A DNA stretch of 62,170 nucleotides from Alphaproteobacteria bacterium (GTDB taxonomy: Bacteria; Pseudomonadota; Alphaproteobacteria; Sphingomonadales; Kordiimonadaceae), in assembly GCA_006226495.1 (NCBI GenBank), contig SBGU01000009.1, forward strand, positions 1 to 62,170. Reading direction: 5' to 3'. Below are positions 22,109-29,977 of this stretch, piece by piece. Under the pieces are notes generated by a model. That model saw only the letters and a program-made list of their open reading frames with translations. It searched no databases and had not been told where the DNA came from. Positions within the stretch are counted from its first letter, which is position 1, and each line of letters starts with the position of its first letter. Position numbers and translations under genes: made by a program.

Positions 22109-22267
22109 AATTCTCTCGTCCTAAAATGGTTTTAAATCGTTTCGTCACTTGGCCCGATGCCATTGGTTGGCTATGGTTCTGACATGGCAGCCGGAAATGG
22201 CAAGGGAAAATGTCCCTTGCGATGGCCGATGCCTTTGCGATTTGGGGTTGGAAGGGGAGAAGGCCTG

Positions 22268-22909
22268 ATGATGACCATGGATTTTGCGGCCCTGTTGTGC
22301 TCGCGCCTGTGTCACGACCTTGTCAGCCCTGTTGGGGCCATCAACAACGGACTGGAGATACTTCAGGAAGAGCATGACGCCGCAATGCGCGACGCCGTCG
22401 TTGACCTGATCGAAAAATCGACCCGCCAGACCAGCAACAAACTTCAGTTTTTCCGGCTTGCTTTTGGCGCTGCCGGCGGCTTTTCAGCGCAACTGGATAT
22501 GCGGGAATCGGAGCGGGCCCTGCGTGCTTTCCTCGATGGCAGCCGCATTGCCCTTGAATGGCAGGTCAATGTGCCCAATGCCTCCAAGAGCCTGGTGAAG
22601 CTGTTGCTGAACCTTGCCCTGGTCGTTTCCGAGACCCTGATCCGCGGTGGTGCGCTGACCGTGCGCATGGTCGAAAAGCATGGCGACATCGCGATCGATA
22701 TCGAAGGCTCGGGCGAGCGCATCATCATGCAACCCGCGGTGCGGGCCGCGCTCGCGGGCACTTTGTCGGAACAGGACCTCGATCCGCGCACCGCACCGGC
22801 CTATCTGGCCGCCTGGGTTGCTGGCAGCCAGGCCGGGTCTATAAAGATTGTGGATATTGCCGAAACTTCGGTGCATGTGTCTGCGACAATGCCGCAGGCG
22901 GAACGCTGA
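22268..22909 (+). CDS. chpT: Histidine phosphotransferase ChpT
   Basis: 213 residues. The phospho-relay His is His16 in LCSRLCHDLVSPVGAINNG, the ChpT signature, followed by a helical hairpin and a degenerate Bergerat-type domain (VSETLIRGG, then IDIEGSGERI). In alphaproteobacteria ChpT relays phosphate from CckA to CtrA and CpdR. The start at 22268 has GGGAGA upstream; the longer frame from 22157 lacks support. It sits directly before the chemotaxis operon and 6 kb from ctrA, so relay and target are linked on the chromosome. Confidence 0.92.
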   Translation: MMTMDFAALLCSRLCHDLVSPVGAINNGLEILQEEHDAAMRDAVVDLIEKSTRQTSNKLQFFRLAFGAAGGFSAQLDMRESERALRAFLDGSRIALEWQVNVPNASKSLVKLLLNLALVVSETLIRGGALTVRMVEKHGDIAIDIEGSGERIIMQPAVRAALAGTLSEQDLDPRTAPAYLAAWVAGSQAGSIKIVDIAETSVHVSATMPQAER

Positions 22910-23043: not shown

Positions 23044-26000
23044 ATGGATGATCTGTTAAACGAATTCCTGACCGAGACAGCCGAAAGCATCGACGTTGTG
23101 GACGTCGAACTCGTCAAGCTGGAGCAGGACCCCAACAACAAGGAAGTGCTGGATAACATCTTCCGGCTTGTGCACACGATCAAGGGCACATGCGGCTTCC
23201 TTGGATTGCCCCGGCTGGAATCGGTTGCGCACGCGTCCGAAAACGTTCTCGGCAAGTTCCGGGACGGCGAATTGCAGGTCTCCGAACATTCGGTGACGGT
23301 CATCCTGGAAAGCCTGGACCGCATCAAGGAAATCCTCGCGGGCCTCGAGGCAACGGAGGAGGAGCCGGAAGGCGACGATACCGACCTGATTGCCCGGCTG
23401 GATGCCATCGCGGAAGGGGCGCTGGCAGCGCCCGCGCCTGAACCCGACACCGTGGAAGGCGAGATTATCGACCCCGGCCTTGGCCGTCCGCTCAAGGCAG
23501 GCGAGGTTTCGCTGGCCGAGCTTGAGGCCGCCTTTGCGGCGGCACCCGGGCCCGAGGAAATGGCCGCAGCCCCCGAGCCCGCACCCAAAAAACAGTCCGC
23601 TGGCAAAAAAGCCAGCCTGTTCGACCGGGTTGGCGGCGAAGACACGATTGCCGTTGCTGCCCACCTTCTGTCCCAGCGGCTTGAAAGCCACAAGGAACTT
23701 GGTAAGTTTTTCAGCGGTACTGCGGCGGACCTGCGCAAGGGCCGCTTCATGGGCATGATGCTGGCGCTTTACAAAGACGACCTGGACGCCGCCGACAATG
23801 TCGGTCGCCAGCTTGTCAGCGCTTCCGGCTTTACCGAACAGAATTTCAACACGCTTCTGGGCCTCGTGAAGGATGTGCTGGTCGGCTGCCAGGTAGATGG
23901 TGACACGGCTGATGAAGCCGTCATGTCCTTCGAACTGGTTCGCGAGGCGGTACTGACGGCTTCCAAGGCTGTCGCCAAGGCAGAGACCAACAAGGCGGGC
24001 CGTGCGGCCGGTGGCGCCAGTGCGGCGGCTGCATCGTCCGACGAACATGCGGCAGCCGGCGGCGAAGGTGGCAAACGTGTCAGCCAGTCGATCCGTGTCA
24101 GTGTCGACCTTCTGGAAGACCTGATGAACCTGGTCTCCGAACTGGTGCTGACCCGGAACCAGCTTTTGCAGATTACCCGCAATGTCGAGAATTCCGAACT
24201 TGGTGTGCCGCTGCAGCGCCTGAGCCAGTGTACGACCGAGCTGCAGGAAAACGTCATGAAGACGCGCATGCAGCCCATCGGTAATGCCTGGGCCAAGCTG
24301 CCGCGTATCGTGCGCGACCTGACAGTGGAACTGGACAAGAAGATCGAGCTTGATATGCGCGGCGCGGAAACCGAGCTCGACCGCCAGGTTCTGGAACTGA
24401 TCAAGGACCCCCTGACCCATATGGTGCGCAACTCGGCCGACCATGGCATCGAGAAGCCGGCGGAACGCCTGGCGCTTGGCAAGCCAGAGGGCGGCACCAT
24501 CACCCTGAACGCTTTCCATGAAGGCGGTCATATCATCATCGAGATCAAGGACGATGGCCGTGGTATCCCCGTCGCCAAACTGTCCAAGAAGATTCTGGAA
24601 AAGCGCCTCGCCACCGAAGCCGAACTGGCGGAAATGTCGGATGCGCAAATCCAGAAGTTCATTTTCCATCCCGGCTTTTCAACCGCCGAACAGGTGACCA
24701 GTGTATCCGGCCGCGGTGTCGGTATGGACGTGGTGCGTTCGAACATCGAAAAGATCGGCGGCACCATCGATATGCAGTCGGTGGAAGGCAAGGGCACGCG
24801 CTTCTCCATCAAGATCCCGCTGACCCTCGCGATCGTGGCCGGCCTGATCGTGAAGGCGCAGGAAGAGCGTTATGCCATTCCGCAAATCAGTGTGCTTGAA
24901 CTGGTGCGGGCTTCGCAAAACAGCGAACACAAGATCGAGACCATCAAGAATACGCCGGTGCTCAGGCTCCGGAACCGGCTGCTGCCGCTTGTATATCTGA
25001 ACGAGATCCTCGGGTTCATGACCCGCGAGGAAATCGACGCCCGCGACAACAAGGACGACTTCATCGTTGTGGCCCAGGTTGGTGCCTTCTCCTTCGGTAT
25101 CGTAGTCGACCAGGTGTTCGACACCGAAGAGATCGTGGTCAAGCCGGTCGCGCCGATCCTGAAGGACCTGGAAATCTATTCCGGCAATACCATCCTCGGG
25201 GATGGCAGTGTGATCATGATCCTTGATCCGAACGGCATCGCCGCCAAAGCGAACGCCAGTGCCGGTGATCATGAACATGAAGAAGAAAGGGCGAAGGAAG
25301 ACGCCAAGCGCAGGACCGTGCGGGACGAAAAAGAAAGCATGCTTCTGTTCCGCGCCGGCGGCAAACATCCGAAAGCGGTGCCGCTCGGCCTTGTCGCGCG
25401 CCTCGAAGAAATCGAAATCGGCAATATCGAGGAATCGGACGGCCGCCTGATGGTTCAGTATCGTGGTGCGCTGATGCCGCTCATCCTCGCCGACCAGAAT
25501 ATGTCCATCCGCGCCGAAGGCAAACAGCCGGTCCTGGTGTTTACGGACGGTGATTATACGATGGGTCTGGCGGTTGACGAGATTCTCGACATCGTTGAAG
25601 ACAAGCTGGAGATCAAGCTGGCGTCCGACCGCAAGGGTGTGGTGGGTTCGGCCATCATCGCCGGCAAGGCGTCCGAAGTTATCGATGTGGCCTACTATCT
25701 GGGCCTTGCCTTCGCAGACTGGCTCAAGAGCCGCGACATGTCCGAGGACGTGGCGCCGGTCAAGGGGGCAGACCTTCTGCTGATCGACGACAGCGATTTC
25801 TTCCGCAACATGCTGAAGCCGGTCCTGACGGTTTCCGGCTATCAGGTCCGGGCGGTATCGAGCGCAAAAGCGGCCCTGAAGTTGATGGAAGAGGGTTACA
25901 TGTTCGACCTCATCATCTCGGATATCGAGATGCCGGACATGAACGGCTTCGACTTTGCCCGCATGGTACGCGATGGCAGCCGCTGGGAAACAACGCCGAT

Positions 26001-26145
26001 GGTGGCCCTGTCGGCGCTCGCGACCGAGCGCGATGTCCAGCGTGGCCACGATGCCGGTTTCGATGACTATGTCGCCAAATTCGACAAGGAAACCCTGCTC
26101 CGCAGCCTTTCGCAGCAACTGAAGATCAAAGGAGATGCGGCATGA
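23044..26145 (+). CDS. cheA: Hybrid chemotaxis kinase CheA with globin-like insert, two CheW domains and receiver
   Basis: 1033 residues. HPt domain (1-105) with phospho-His44 in LVHTIKGTCGF; acidic/Ala-Pro linker (106-189); a truncated-globin-like domain (about 190-308) where P2 usually lies; dimerisation P3 (about 347-415); ATPase P4 with N box HMVRNSADHGIE, G1 DDGRGI and G2 GRGVGMDV (about 416-595); CheW-type P5 (596-735); a second CheW-like domain (about 762-895); and a C-terminal receiver (907-1028) with Asp915/916, phospho-Asp960 and Lys1012. It should phosphorylate CheY and CheB; the receiver may act as a phosphate sink, as in FrzE-like hybrids. The globin-like part has the SLFDRVGGED start and the GFTEQNF helix but Val258 where the haem-binding His should be. 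First gene of cheAWYBR. Confidence 0.9.
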   Translation: MDDLLNEFLTETAESIDVVDVELVKLEQDPNNKEVLDNIFRLVHTIKGTCGFLGLPRLESVAHASENVLGKFRDGELQVSEHSVTVILESLDRIKEILAGLEATEEEPEGDDTDLIARLDAIAEGALAAPAPEPDTVEGEIIDPGLGRPLKAGEVSLAELEAAFAAAPGPEEMAAAPEPAPKKQSAGKKASLFDRVGGEDTIAVAAHLLSQRLESHKELGKFFSGTAADLRKGRFMGMMLALYKDDLDAADNVGRQLVSASGFTEQNFNTLLGLVKDVLVGCQVDGDTADEAVMSFELVREAVLTASKAVAKAETNKAGRAAGGASAAAASSDEHAAAGGEGGKRVSQSIRVSVDLLEDLMNLVSELVLTRNQLLQITRNVENSELGVPLQRLSQCTTELQENVMKTRMQPIGNAWAKLPRIVRDLTVELDKKIELDMRGAETELDRQVLELIKDPLTHMVRNSADHGIEKPAERLALGKPEGGTITLNAFHEGGHIIIEIKDDGRGIPVAKLSKKILEKRLATEAELAEMSDAQIQKFIFHPGFSTAEQVTSVSGRGVGMDVVRSNIEKIGGTIDMQSVEGKGTRFSIKIPLTLAIVAGLIVKAQEERYAIPQISVLELVRASQNSEHKIETIKNTPVLRLRNRLLPLVYLNEILGFMTREEIDARDNKDDFIVVAQVGAFSFGIVVDQVFDTEEIVVKPVAPILKDLEIYSGNTILGDGSVIMILDPNGIAAKANASAGDHEHEEERAKEDAKRRTVRDEKESMLLFRAGGKHPKAVPLGLVARLEEIEIGNIEESDGRLMVQYRGALMPLILADQNMSIRAEGKQPVLVFTDGDYTMGLAVDEILDIVEDKLEIKLASDRKGVVGSAIIAGKASEVIDVAYYLGLAFADWLKSRDMSEDVAPVKGADLLLIDDSDFFRNMLKPVLTVSGYQVRAVSSAKAALKLMEEGYMFDLIISDIEMPDMNGFDFARMVRDGSRWETTPMVALSALATERDVQRGHDAGFDDYVAKFDKETLLRSLSQQLKIKGDAA

Positions 26146-26627
26146 ACGATCTCGTTGTCCGCAAGGAACTGAATGTGGTTGCCACCGGCTCGCAGGACTA
26201 TGTGACTGTGCGCCTGGCCGGGCAAACCCTTGGCATCCCTGTGCTGGCAGTCCATGACGTGCTGAATGCCCAGAAGATCACCCGCATCCCGCGCGCACCC
26301 GAATGGGTGTCCGGTGTCTTGAACCTCAGGGGCCGCATCGTAACGGCAATCGACCTGCGTCGTCGCCTGGGGCTGCCGCCGCGCGAGGCCGGCAAGACCA
26401 GCATGTCGGTGGTTGTGGAGCATAATGAAGAGCCTTACAGCCTGCAGATTGACAGCGTCGGCGAGGTGCTCTCGCTCGACAACCAGCTTTTCGAGAAAAA
26501 CCCGGTCACGCTCGACCCGCGCTGGCGCGAAGTCAGCCGCGGCATCTACCGGCTGGAAAAGGAACTTTTGCCAATTCTCGACGTCGACAAGCTTCTTGCC
26601 TTTGAAAGCAAAGACAAAGCTGCATAA
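26142..26627 (+). CDS. cheW: Chemotaxis coupling protein CheW
   Basis: 161 residues, a single SH3-like CheW domain (about 20-155) with LNLRGRIVTAIDLRRRLGL, the receptor- and kinase-contact segment. It links methyl-accepting receptors to CheA. It overlaps cheA by four bases (ATGA), giving coupled translation. Confidence 0.94.
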   Translation: MNDLVVRKELNVVATGSQDYVTVRLAGQTLGIPVLAVHDVLNAQKITRIPRAPEWVSGVLNLRGRIVTAIDLRRRLGLPPREAGKTSMSVVVEHNEEPYSLQIDSVGEVLSLDNQLFEKNPVTLDPRWREVSRGIYRLEKELLPILDVDKLLAFESKDKAA

Positions 26628-26690: not shown

Positions 26691-27056
26691 ATGAAATTAT
26701 GTCTTGTCGTCGATGACTCGAAAGTGATCCGCAAGGTCGCCCGGCGCATTCTAGAGGAACTGAATTTCGAGATCGATGAGGCCGTCGACGGCCAGGATGC
26801 CCTGGATGCCTGCGAACGCAACCTGCCGGATGTCGTGCTTCTGGACTGGAACATGCCGGTGATGGACGGGCTGGAGTTCCTGAAGGCGCTCAGGGCACGT
26901 GACGGCATCGAACAGCCGGTCGTGGTATTCTGCACCACCGAAAACGACATGGCGCACATCCGTACCGCCATCGAGGCGGGGGCCAACGAATATATCATGA
27001 AACCGTTCGACCGCGAGATTATCGAAGCGAAATTCTCCCAGGTCGGTTTGCTCTAG
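26691..27056 (+). CDS. cheY: Chemotaxis response regulator CheY
   Basis: 121 residues, a lone receiver domain. The acidic pocket is VVDDS (Asp8-Asp9), phospho-Asp52 is in LLDWNMPVMDG, the switch Thr is in FCTTEN, and Lys is in YIMKPFD. Phospho-CheY binds the flagellar switch proteins (fliG and fliN are in this window). A 63-base gap separates it from cheW; a GAGGAG site precedes the ATG. Confidence 0.94.
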   Translation: MKLCLVVDDSKVIRKVARRILEELNFEIDEAVDGQDALDACERNLPDVVLLDWNMPVMDGLEFLKALRARDGIEQPVVVFCTTENDMAHIRTAIEAGANEYIMKPFDREIIEAKFSQVGLL

Positions 27057-27072: not shown

Positions 27073-28359
27073 GTGACGTCAGCCGTGTCCAAATCGAGTA
27101 TGGCAGTGAAGGACGGTGGACCGTTTCGGGTGATGGTTGTCGATGACAGCGCCATTATCCGTGGTTTTTTGTGCCGCTATCTCTCTGAAGATCCCGATAT
27201 CGAGGTTGTCACCACCGCAAACAACGGTGTTGTGGCCCTGCGCCAGCTTGAAAGCTATGACATCGAAGTGGTGGTGCTGGATATCGAAATGCCGGAAATG
27301 GACGGCCTGACCGCGCTGCCGCGCATGATCGAGCAAAAGCCCGACCTGCAGGTGGTGATGGCGTCGACCCTGACCCGCAAGAATGCCGAGATCAGCCTCA
27401 GAAGCCTGCAGATGGGGGCGGTCGATTATGTGCCGAAGCCCGAAACCGCGCGTTCGGTGAACGCCAATATCGATTTTCGCCGCGAACTGGTCGACAAGGT
27501 CAAGGCCTGGGCGGGCCGCCGCCGCAAGAAGCGGGGCGAGACCATGCCCGGCGCCGGCGACGACGGCGCGGCGTCCCCAGGGGGGGTGACCGCGGCCGGC
27601 CTTGGTGCCCGGACAGCGTCTGCCGGTGGTTTCGTGACCGCCCGCCGGCCTGTTGCCCGCCCTGTCACTGTGGTCAGCGCGCGCCCTGCGGCGCCTGCGG
27701 CTGCACGTGTGGACCCGCTGTTGCCCATGGGCGCCATGTCGGGCAAGGAAATCAAGCTGCGCCAGGGCTCGTTCCGGCGCCCGAAAGTGCTGGCTGTCGG
27801 CTCGTCGACCGGCGGGCCGCAGGCGCTGATGAAATTCTTCAAGAGTTTCGGTCGTCAGCCGCAGGTGCCGATCCTGATCACCCAGCATATGCCGGCCACG
27901 TTTACCGCCATTCTGGCCGACCATCTGCAGCAGTCCACGGGCTGGCCTTCGCAGGAGGGCAGGGACGGCATGCTGCTTGAGGCCGGGAAAATCTATGTGG
28001 CGCCTGGCGGCAGGCATATGGAAGTGGCGGATGACGAGGGCGTGAAACGCATCCGCCTGACCGACGAACCGCCGGAGAATTTCTGCCGCCCCGCTGTTGA
28101 CCCGCTGTTCCGCAGCCTTGCCACGGCTTATGGCGAGAATGTGCTGGCGGTGGTGCTGACCGGCATGGGGCATGACGGCCTGAAGGGCGCGCGGGAACTG
28201 ACCCGTGTCGGTGCCACGGTGCTGGCCCAGGACGAAGCCTCCAGCGTGGTCTGGGGCATGCCCGGGGCGGTGGCGACGGCCGGGCTGTGTACGGAAGTAT
28301 TGCCGGTGGACCAGTTGGGTGAAACCACGTCCAAGCGGCTGCAAGGAGGAATCGGGTGA
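27073..28359 (+). CDS. cheB: Chemotaxis methylesterase CheB
   Basis: 428 residues: a receiver domain (about 15-140; phospho-Asp in VVVLDIEMPEMDG), an Ala/Arg/Val-rich linker (about 150-230), and a C-terminal methylesterase with Ser in GSSTGGPQAL, His in QHMPATFTAIL and Asp in LTGMGHDG. It demethylates or deamidates receptors. The start codon is a GTG at 27073; later GTG or ATG codons (27085, 27100) are possible because no clear ribosome site is seen. It overlaps cheR. Confidence 0.94.
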   Translation: MTSAVSKSSMAVKDGGPFRVMVVDDSAIIRGFLCRYLSEDPDIEVVTTANNGVVALRQLESYDIEVVVLDIEMPEMDGLTALPRMIEQKPDLQVVMASTLTRKNAEISLRSLQMGAVDYVPKPETARSVNANIDFRRELVDKVKAWAGRRRKKRGETMPGAGDDGAASPGGVTAAGLGARTASAGGFVTARRPVARPVTVVSARPAAPAAARVDPLLPMGAMSGKEIKLRQGSFRRPKVLAVGSSTGGPQALMKFFKSFGRQPQVPILITQHMPATFTAILADHLQQSTGWPSQEGRDGMLLEAGKIYVAPGGRHMEVADDEGVKRIRLTDEPPENFCRPAVDPLFRSLATAYGENVLAVVLTGMGHDGLKGARELTRVGATVLAQDEASSVVWGMPGAVATAGLCTEVLPVDQLGETTSKRLQGGIG

Positions 28360-29198
28360 AGACTGAAGATTTTGAATTCCTTGCCGGCATGCTCAAGGAA
28401 CGGTCGGGCCTGATGCTGACCCCTGACAAGGTCTATCTGCTCGAAAGCCGGCTGACACCGCTTGCGCGCAAGCGTGGCCTCGATACGCTCGATGCCCTGG
28501 TGCAGAAGCTGCGCCTGAGCCGCGAAGAAAGCCTGATCCGCGACGTCACGGAAGCGATGACCACCAACGAGTCGTTCTTCTTCCGCGACAACACGCCGTT
28601 CGACCTGTTCAAGAACCATGTGTTGCCGGCGATGGAAAAGTCGCGTACCAGCCAGAAACGCCTGCGCATCTGGTGTGCGGCTGCCTCGACCGGGCAGGAG
28701 CCCTATTCGCTGGCGATCCTTTTGCGTGAAAACTGGATCAAGTGGCAGAACTGGAACATCGAGATCGTCGGTACCGATATCTGCACCCAGGTGCTGGAAA
28801 AAGCCAAGGCCGGCACCTACAGCCAGTTCGAGGTCCAGCGCGGTCTGCCGATCCAGATGCTGATCAAATATTTCCGCCAGGAAGGTGACCAGTGGCGCAT
28901 CAGCGATGATATCCGCCGTATGGTCAGCTTCCGACCGTTCAACTTGCTCAGCAACTTCATCGGCATGGGCACATTCGACGTGATCTATTGCCGCAACGTG
29001 CTGATCTATTTCGACCAGCCGACCAAAAAGGACGTGCTTGAGCGCATGCGCAAATGCCTGGCGCCGGATGGCACCGTGTTCCTGGGCGCGGCAGAGACCG
29101 TGCTCGGCATCACCGAAGCCTTCCGCCCGGTTCGTGGCCAGCGTGGCATGTATGTACCGTCTGACGGCACGGCCGAAAAACTGATGGGCCTTGGTTAA
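28356..29198 (+). CDS. cheR: Chemotaxis methyltransferase CheR
   Basis: 280 residues: an N-terminal helical domain (about 1-70) and a SAM-dependent methyltransferase with the WCAAASTGQEPYSLAI motif I and FDVIYCRNVLIYFD (about 205-218). It methylates receptor glutamates. A GTG start overlaps the cheB stop, with an excellent AAGGAGGAAT site. Last gene of the operon; a terminator follows. Confidence 0.95.
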   Translation: MKTEDFEFLAGMLKERSGLMLTPDKVYLLESRLTPLARKRGLDTLDALVQKLRLSREESLIRDVTEAMTTNESFFFRDNTPFDLFKNHVLPAMEKSRTSQKRLRIWCAAASTGQEPYSLAILLRENWIKWQNWNIEIVGTDICTQVLEKAKAGTYSQFEVQRGLPIQMLIKYFRQEGDQWRISDDIRRMVSFRPFNLLSNFIGMGTFDVIYCRNVLIYFDQPTKKDVLERMRKCLAPDGTVFLGAAETVLGITEAFRPVRGQRGMYVPSDGTAEKLMGLG

Positions 29199-29275: not shown

Positions 29276-29977
29276 TCAGCTTGCGACGGCTTCGGCTTCG
29301 TCCGACGGGTTCCTGAGCACATAACCCCGGCCCCAGACGGTTTCGATATAGTTGTCGCCGTCCGACGCCGACGCCAGCTTCTTGCGAAGCTTGCAGATGA
29401 AGACGTCGATGATCTTCAGTTCGGGCTCGTCGATGCCGCCATAAAGATGGTTCAGGAACATTTCCTTGGTGAGCGTGCTGCCTTTCCTGAGCGAAAGCAG
29501 CTCAAGCATCGCATATTCCTTGCCGGTCAGGTGCACACGCTGGTTCGAAACCTCGACGGTTTTGGTATCAAGGTTAACGGCCAGCTTGCCGGTCTTGATG
29601 ATCGACTGGCTGTGGCCTTTCGACCGCCTGACAATGGCATGGATGCGGGCCACCAGCTCTTCCTTGTGGAAGGGCTTGGTCAGGTAATCGTCGGCACCAA
29701 AGCCAAGGCCCTTGACCTTGTTTTCCATTTCCGTAAGGCCGGAAAGGATCAGGATTGGTGTATTCACCTTGGCCGTGCGCAGTTTCTTCAGCACGTCATA
29801 TCCGTGCATGTCCGGCAGGTTCAGGTCCAGAAGGATAATGTCGTAATCGTAGAGTTTACCGAGGTCCAGGCCCTCTTCGCCCAGGTCCGTGCTGTAAACA
29901 TTGAAACCTTCGGCATTCAGCATCAGTTCGATGCTGCGGGTCATTGTCGGATCATCTTCAATCAGAAGAACACGCAT
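29276..29977 (-). CDS. ctrA: Cell-cycle master regulator CtrA
   Basis: 233 residues, an OmpR-family regulator. Receiver: Asp8-Asp9 in LLIEDDP, phospho-Asp51 in [14 protein letters not shown] and Lys in [10 protein letters not shown], the exact spacing of Caulobacter CtrA. The C-terminal winged helix (about 125-225) has the recognition region [18 protein letters not shown], near-identical across CtrA proteins. The C-terminus ends AVAS rather than the Ala-Ala needed for ClpXP recognition in Caulobacter, so turnover may differ. A cluster of TTAA sites lies upstream, suggesting autoregulation. Divergent from fliI. Confidence 0.96.

Follow-up and report, generated by a model that had tools for sequence, protein, structure and literature searches.

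CheA is presented in the literature as a histidine kinase without a sensor domain, dependent on receptors, and the auxiliary domains named in the excerpts of a CheA survey are only P2, CheY-like and CheC/CheX domains (PMC10782961). According to the same excerpts, two CheW domains are the hallmark of class F5, where a receiver is also common, P2 is absent from most receiver-bearing CheAs, and F5-class CheAs occur in Rhodospirillum centenum, Azospirillum brasilense, Caulobacter crescentus and Azorhizobium caulinodans (PMC10782961). The word globin is absent from the main text of this survey and of the preprint, and the globin-bearing chemotaxis proteins in the excerpts of other papers are receptors (PMC3770913, PMC13401364, PMC1592074, PMC6194562). 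Globin-coupled sensors (HemAT and others) are described there as carrying an N-terminal sensor globin on a receptor (PMC13401364), and Cc_4972 of Corallococcus coralloides as an MCP with PAS and Bac_globin domains (PMC6194562). A haem-less globin in signalling is likewise found in RsbR, a stressosome protein with another output, whose N-terminal non-haem globin acts, in the portion of the source available, via protein contacts (PMC6614362). A search of the open-licence literature on globins together with CheA or histidine kinases, outside which most subscription papers lie, did not find a CheA with a globin; the sequence-only reading of the DNA studied here was likewise aware of no described CheA with this arrangement.

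The window, by which we mean the whole stretch of 62,170 nt that was analysed, contains a cheA gene of 1033 codons (23044..26145, + strand) whose open reading frame and Pfam domains follow the F5 layout (PMC10782961), the assignment being by architecture, from two CheW domains and a receiver, and not by a class model. In order, and all on the + strand, the product has P1 (Hpt, residues 3–96, 23050..23331; PF01627, 5.4e-16), the P3 dimerisation domain (residues 347–407, 24082..24264; PF02895, 3.9e-15), the P4 kinase (HATPase_c, residues 455–594, 24406..24825; PF02518, 3.3e-19), P5, which is the first CheW-like domain (residues 600–734, 24841..25245; PF01584), a second CheW-like domain (residues ca. 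766–883, 25339..25692; PF01584, 2.7e-6) and a receiver (residues 912–1020, 25777..26103; PF00072, 2.4e-20), the last two as previously read from the sequence. The histidine of the HTIKG motif, residue 44, is presumably the phosphorylation site. Pfam gave no match to P2 in this protein. The window CheA thus has in common with the F5 class the Hpt, dimerisation and kinase domains, the two CheW domains and the C-terminal receiver, but differs by a truncated globin in the P1–P3 linker, at residues 190–310 (23611..23973, + strand), a domain without haem residues that was identified by phmmer, profile searches, profile-profile comparison and shuffles and that includes the segments SLFDRVGGED (residues 191–200) and GFTEQNF (residues 262–268).

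Pfam is silent on residues 190–310, with no match at E ≤ 1 for either the full protein or a 135-aa piece, and this silence would suit a region that is no globin at all, such as a P2 that has diverged or a helical domain of unrelated origin. The other searches make this extremely improbable, because their significant matches are globins. With the 135-aa piece, all eight phmmer matches to PDB sequences up to an E value of 10 were globins, including HbN from Mycobacterium tuberculosis (2.5e-5) and GlbN (5ab8, 6.2e-5). A profile of 12 orthologues retrieved 21 PDB entries at E ≤ 1, all of them globins (best 9.5e-8), and a larger profile of 27 rows had THB1 (4xdi) on top at 1.7e-15 and its first non-globin at an E value of 0.032. 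The larger profile (A1) holds 27 of 33 domains, five from the genus of the window and the diverged L037 having been dropped, and the smaller one (A2) is made of 12 of these 27 rows. Profile-profile comparison scored 98.1 % against 11 standalone truncated haemoglobins (trHbs) and, equally, 98.1 % against nine haem-type CheA globins; the 11 standalone rows (A5) are those kept from 13 listed, themselves 13 of 19, and the six dropped include both rows without the F8 histidine.

Chance similarity to globins was ruled out by controls, since the 12-row profile scored 35.7 bits against the 11 standalone trHbs in its real order and 0.6 bits when reversed, and 100 column shuffles of it averaged no more than 2.7 bits, none coming near the real profile. 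A divergent P2 was ruled out with hhalign, which gave 0.1 % against the domains that we take, from their position, to be the P2 of three other CheAs from the order of the window. The Pfam model for truncated globins, PF01152, scored above its cut-off in the CheA of eight of 40 genomes searched, five of which pass only when neighbouring in-frame pieces are summed, and the window CheA lies outside these eight; at E ≤ 0.1 the model matches 13 of 27 CheA domains from the order. The closest named loci to the domain are in Kordiimonas marina (82 % identity), K. gwangyangensis (72 %) and other Kordiimonadales, and on this basis we assign the window to an alphaproteobacterium of the Kordiimonas type. 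On the profile evidence, residues 190–310 are derived from a group I trHb, as had been proposed for residues ca. 190–308.

With group I trHbs (PF01152; HbN, GlbN, THB1) the domain shares the sequence family, the GG motif that follows the first helix and the length, but it differs from them in being fused within a CheA and in the loss of haem residues in its lineage. The globin-coupled sensors, in the portion of the literature available (PMC13401364), are alike in joining a globin to a chemotaxis signalling protein, but theirs is an N-terminal sensor globin on a receptor, whereas that of the window is a trHb inside the kinase, being internal, of the trHb type and devoid of haem residues. The suggestion that the fold had been borrowed from oxygen sensors needs correcting: the source is the trHb family PF01152, not the globin-coupled sensors to which that term commonly refers. 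Cc_4972, as excerpted, shares the presence of a PF01152 domain in a chemosensory protein but is a receptor, not a CheA (PMC6194562).

The haem residues of trHbs are a distal Phe-Tyr pair at positions B9–B10 and a proximal histidine at F8. In our alignment, FY is found in 14 of 19 standalone trHb rows and the F8 histidine in 17 of 19. At B9–B10 the window has L209-S210, which agrees with the previous observation that the distal FY is replaced. The former F-helix region contains the segment NVGRQLV (residues 252–258, 23797..23817, + strand), where the alignments find the proximal histidine missing. Its F8 position falls on R255 in a 73-domain alignment, on G254 in the profile-profile alignment (judged by eye) and on V258 only in an ungapped pairing with HbN. 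Because H207 and H216 are the sole histidines between residues 185 and 315, no register provides a proximal histidine; its loss, already noticed from the sequence, thus stands, but the placement on Val258 is valid for just one of the three registers. The F8 histidine is absent from all 32 CheA domains aligned from the order of the window, 20 of which have arginine there, and, compared with standalone trHbs, the window domain has a pre-F segment that is shorter by ca. 4 residues.

With the proximal histidine, the distal FY and part of the pre-F segment gone, the window domain is very probably a non-haem globin that has lost haem binding, as the earlier reading had also judged, and we classify it as a haem-less derivative rather than as a functional member of the trHbs since none of the 32 domains retains the F8 histidine. 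The one residue that might argue for haem still being held, through another ligand, is H207, conserved in at least 90 % of the 27 rows. Nevertheless, it lies in the helix B region and not in the F helix, the distal tyrosine is missing as well, and we consider haem binding by the window domain very unlikely; residual binding was rejected on the missing proximal histidine and distal FY.

Within the class, 385 genomes were covered, and among the matches listed 122 of them have a CheA that scores no less than 564 bits; the globin is present in that CheA frame in 18 of the 122, including the genome of the window, with no globin found in this CheA in the other 104. Three further genomes carry the globin outside these 18 (G119 and G233, with shorter matches, and G359, with a weak one), and diverged globins may be missed in the count. 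Presence is constant in the family of the window, with a globin in all 24 genomes searched, although the copy in G006 spans two contig pieces; within the order, three genomes of one family (f4) lack the globin, and G025 has one that has diverged beyond recognition. Beyond the class, four long frames had globin matches and none of them a CheA core match, among the matches listed; frames of ca. 290–316 aa were left out there, so further cases may be missed. In two genomes of the genus of the window, G003 and G012, we observed a second CheA (L041 and L043) with an apparently ordinary P2, and the globin-bearing CheA is therefore not their only one.

The linker that corresponds to the globin is of low complexity and often rich in proline and alanine, as judged by eye, in 26 globin-free CheAs, three of them from the order of the window. 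The globin therefore seems to be an optional insert in the P1–P3 linker and not a replacement of P2: the P2 position formerly assigned to it is correct as a mere location, and its absence from 104 of the 122 genomes implies that docking through a globin is dispensable for the class. In a tree of the CheA core with 49 of 61 rows, a set enriched in globin-bearing rows, presence changes at least nine times, at least three of these changes being forced by well supported branches. A tree of the domains themselves, from which 16 of 73 rows were dropped, neither established nor rejected a single clade of all CheA globins (p-AU 0.307), the best tree needing five changes. The patchy presence could reflect either one ancient insertion followed by many losses or several insertions.

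Outside the order of the window we aligned 22 globin copies from the CheAs of 19 genomes, and 11 of these copies, from nine genomes, have the F8 histidine (AHxxLV...HFD region), so that the search of CheA homologues for the same insert, proposed when the sequence was first read, did recover the proximal residue. The distal pair of these 11 copies is FY in eight, LY in two and FF in one, and three more genomes in the order of G119 show the F8 histidine by eye. PF01152 matches all nine rows of the corresponding alignment (A4, nine of the 11 histidine-bearing copies, without L083 and the first copy of L077), with a best value of 1.5e-20. This strong match makes it plausible that protein databases may already display the globin-CheA architecture, unremarked. 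These haem-type CheAs are candidates for a kinase with a built-in gas sensor; haemoglobin-bearing CheAs, with haem residues kept or lost according to the family, would directly break the rule of a sensorless CheA.

A conserved sensor is disfavoured by two results. Firstly, its occurrence is sporadic in four of six groups searched further: wider searches at E ≤ 1e-5 found a globin-bearing CheA in one of 11 genomes in the order of G342, one of four in that of G097, one of five in that of G129 and one of two in that of G133, with two of two in the family of G161 and five of 22 in the order of G119 (a sixth, in G403, is partial). Secondly, L066 and L089 score equally against standalone trHbs and against other CheA globins. 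We stop a little short of an even chance for the broader scenario, in which some alphaproteobacterial F5-type CheAs would bind haem and detect O2 or NO directly through a trHb in the P1–P3 linker, bypassing receptors, and the window CheA would be a descendant that lost haem and reused the globin. In two of the genomes concerned, G097 and G119, sensing would also involve P5, inside which there is a second globin with the histidine, between the equivalents of window residues 635 and 665. The second truncated globin within P5 spans residues 708–830 in L065 and 656–776 in L077, and in several other orthologues the alignment breaks at ca. 658–670 (window numbering); the P5 site is perhaps a loop tolerant of insertions.

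For the globin, dN/dS could be computed in four of six pairs, with values of 0.12, 0.05, 0.07 and 0.06 that are rough, synonymous sites being near saturation in several pairs. The same pairs gave 0.02–0.11 for the receiver, 0.085–0.51 for the flanking linkers where measurable, the preceding linker being equally low (0.085) in one pair, and 0–0.04 for P1, P3–P4 and P5 apart from one value of 0.055. These ratios suggest that the globin is under purifying selection between close relatives. In identity to the window, compared across 12 relatives, the globin exceeds the following linker in all 12, is lower than the preceding linker in eight, higher in three and equal once, and is below the receiver in 11 and equal once; between families its identity falls to 28 %. 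The globin thus evolves more quickly than the core of the kinase and, at longer distances, than the receiver, and from both comparisons it is constrained among close relatives yet diverges readily.

This combination bears on whether the domain is today a functionless passive spacer or a slowly decaying remnant of a gas sensor. Its absence from most counted orthologues, the patchy presence with nine changes on the tree, and its fast divergence between families, below the preceding linker in most relatives, would all be expected of a remnant, but the low ratios of the four pairs, the consistent excess over the following linker and the retention in every family genome searched speak against it, and we regard it as unlikely. 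Instead, the explanation that we favour, and find fairly probable as a whole, is that a trHb was inserted in the linker of an F5-type CheA, lost haem and is now a protein-binding or regulatory module. For the present role taken separately, our commitment is more tentative: a protein-binding or regulatory function is the likeliest mechanism, at well under an even chance. It ranks first among the readings of the domain, followed by the passive remnant and then by a sensor of small ligands.

Under the favoured explanation, a group I trHb with a haem-binding ancestry entered the P1–P3 linker, as sequence homology shows, and, in a lineage of the Kordiimonadales type, the loss of the proximal histidine, the distal FY and part of the pre-F segment should have left a non-haem globin. 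Tethered between P1 and the dimer core, the folded globin might set the mobility of P1 or, alternatively, bring a partner (CheY, CheB, an array protein or ChpT) to it, since a folded module at this site can alter the access of P1 to the kinase or to partners; related CheAs with haem residues may adjust their kinase activity according to O2 or NO. For a haem-less globin that acts by contacting proteins, RsbR provides a precedent, as far as its excerpted description goes (PMC6614362), and in the haem-less branch the conversion of a gas sensor into a protein module could be studied.

Lipid-binding sensor globins without haem exist, and the vacated pocket could analogously bind another small ligand, hydrophobic or anionic, that tunes the kinase. 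Purifying selection among close relatives is compatible with such a sensor, as is the conserved H207, a position mostly occupied by Asp or Glu in haem-type CheA globins (by eye), but the F8 position is charged, with the arginine of 20 of the 32 domains, and we find this reading doubtful.

The cheA gene lies in a row with a chpT-like gene for a histidine phosphotransferase (22157..22909; PF10090, 2.5e-27; NCBIfam ChpT models, 1e-54 and 6.4e-48, both under cut-off), cheW (26142..26627; PF01584, 8.4e-35), cheY (26691..27056; PF00072, 2e-30), cheB (27073..28359; PF01339, 1.1e-59, and PF00072) and cheR (28356..29198; PF01739, 9.5e-60), all on the + strand, and is adjoined by fliI and by ctrA on the opposite strand (29276..29977, − strand; NCBIfam NF045991, 7.7e-129, above cut-off). 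ChpT and CtrA are parts of the CckA-ChpT-CtrA phosphorelay, and their genes here stand on either side of the chemotaxis operon. A chpT homologue accompanies 23 of 28 CheA loci checked, and cheW 25 of the 28, and this frequency of chpT raises the question of signal exchange between CheA and ChpT. As in the window, a chpT homologue is present in the fetched stretch of the haem-type loci L065, L066, L069, L077 and L089; none was found in the fetched stretches of L067, L068, L083 and L085.

The linker between P1 and the globin contains the motif GEVSLAELEAAFAAAPGP (residues 153–170, 23500..23553, + strand), identified from pattern counts in orthologues with and without the globin. Its pattern, (A/D/E)(D/E)LExxF...GP, occurs in all 32 globin-bearing CheAs of the order of the window, in 13 of 26 globin-free F5-type CheAs and in none of 20 globin-bearing CheAs of other families; L136 has it twice. 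This motif could be a competing short docking site, used instead of the globin.

The genome of the window has three more matches to PF01152, in frames of 253, 139 and 172 aa on contigs C13, C47 and C50, respectively, which are probably standalone globins.
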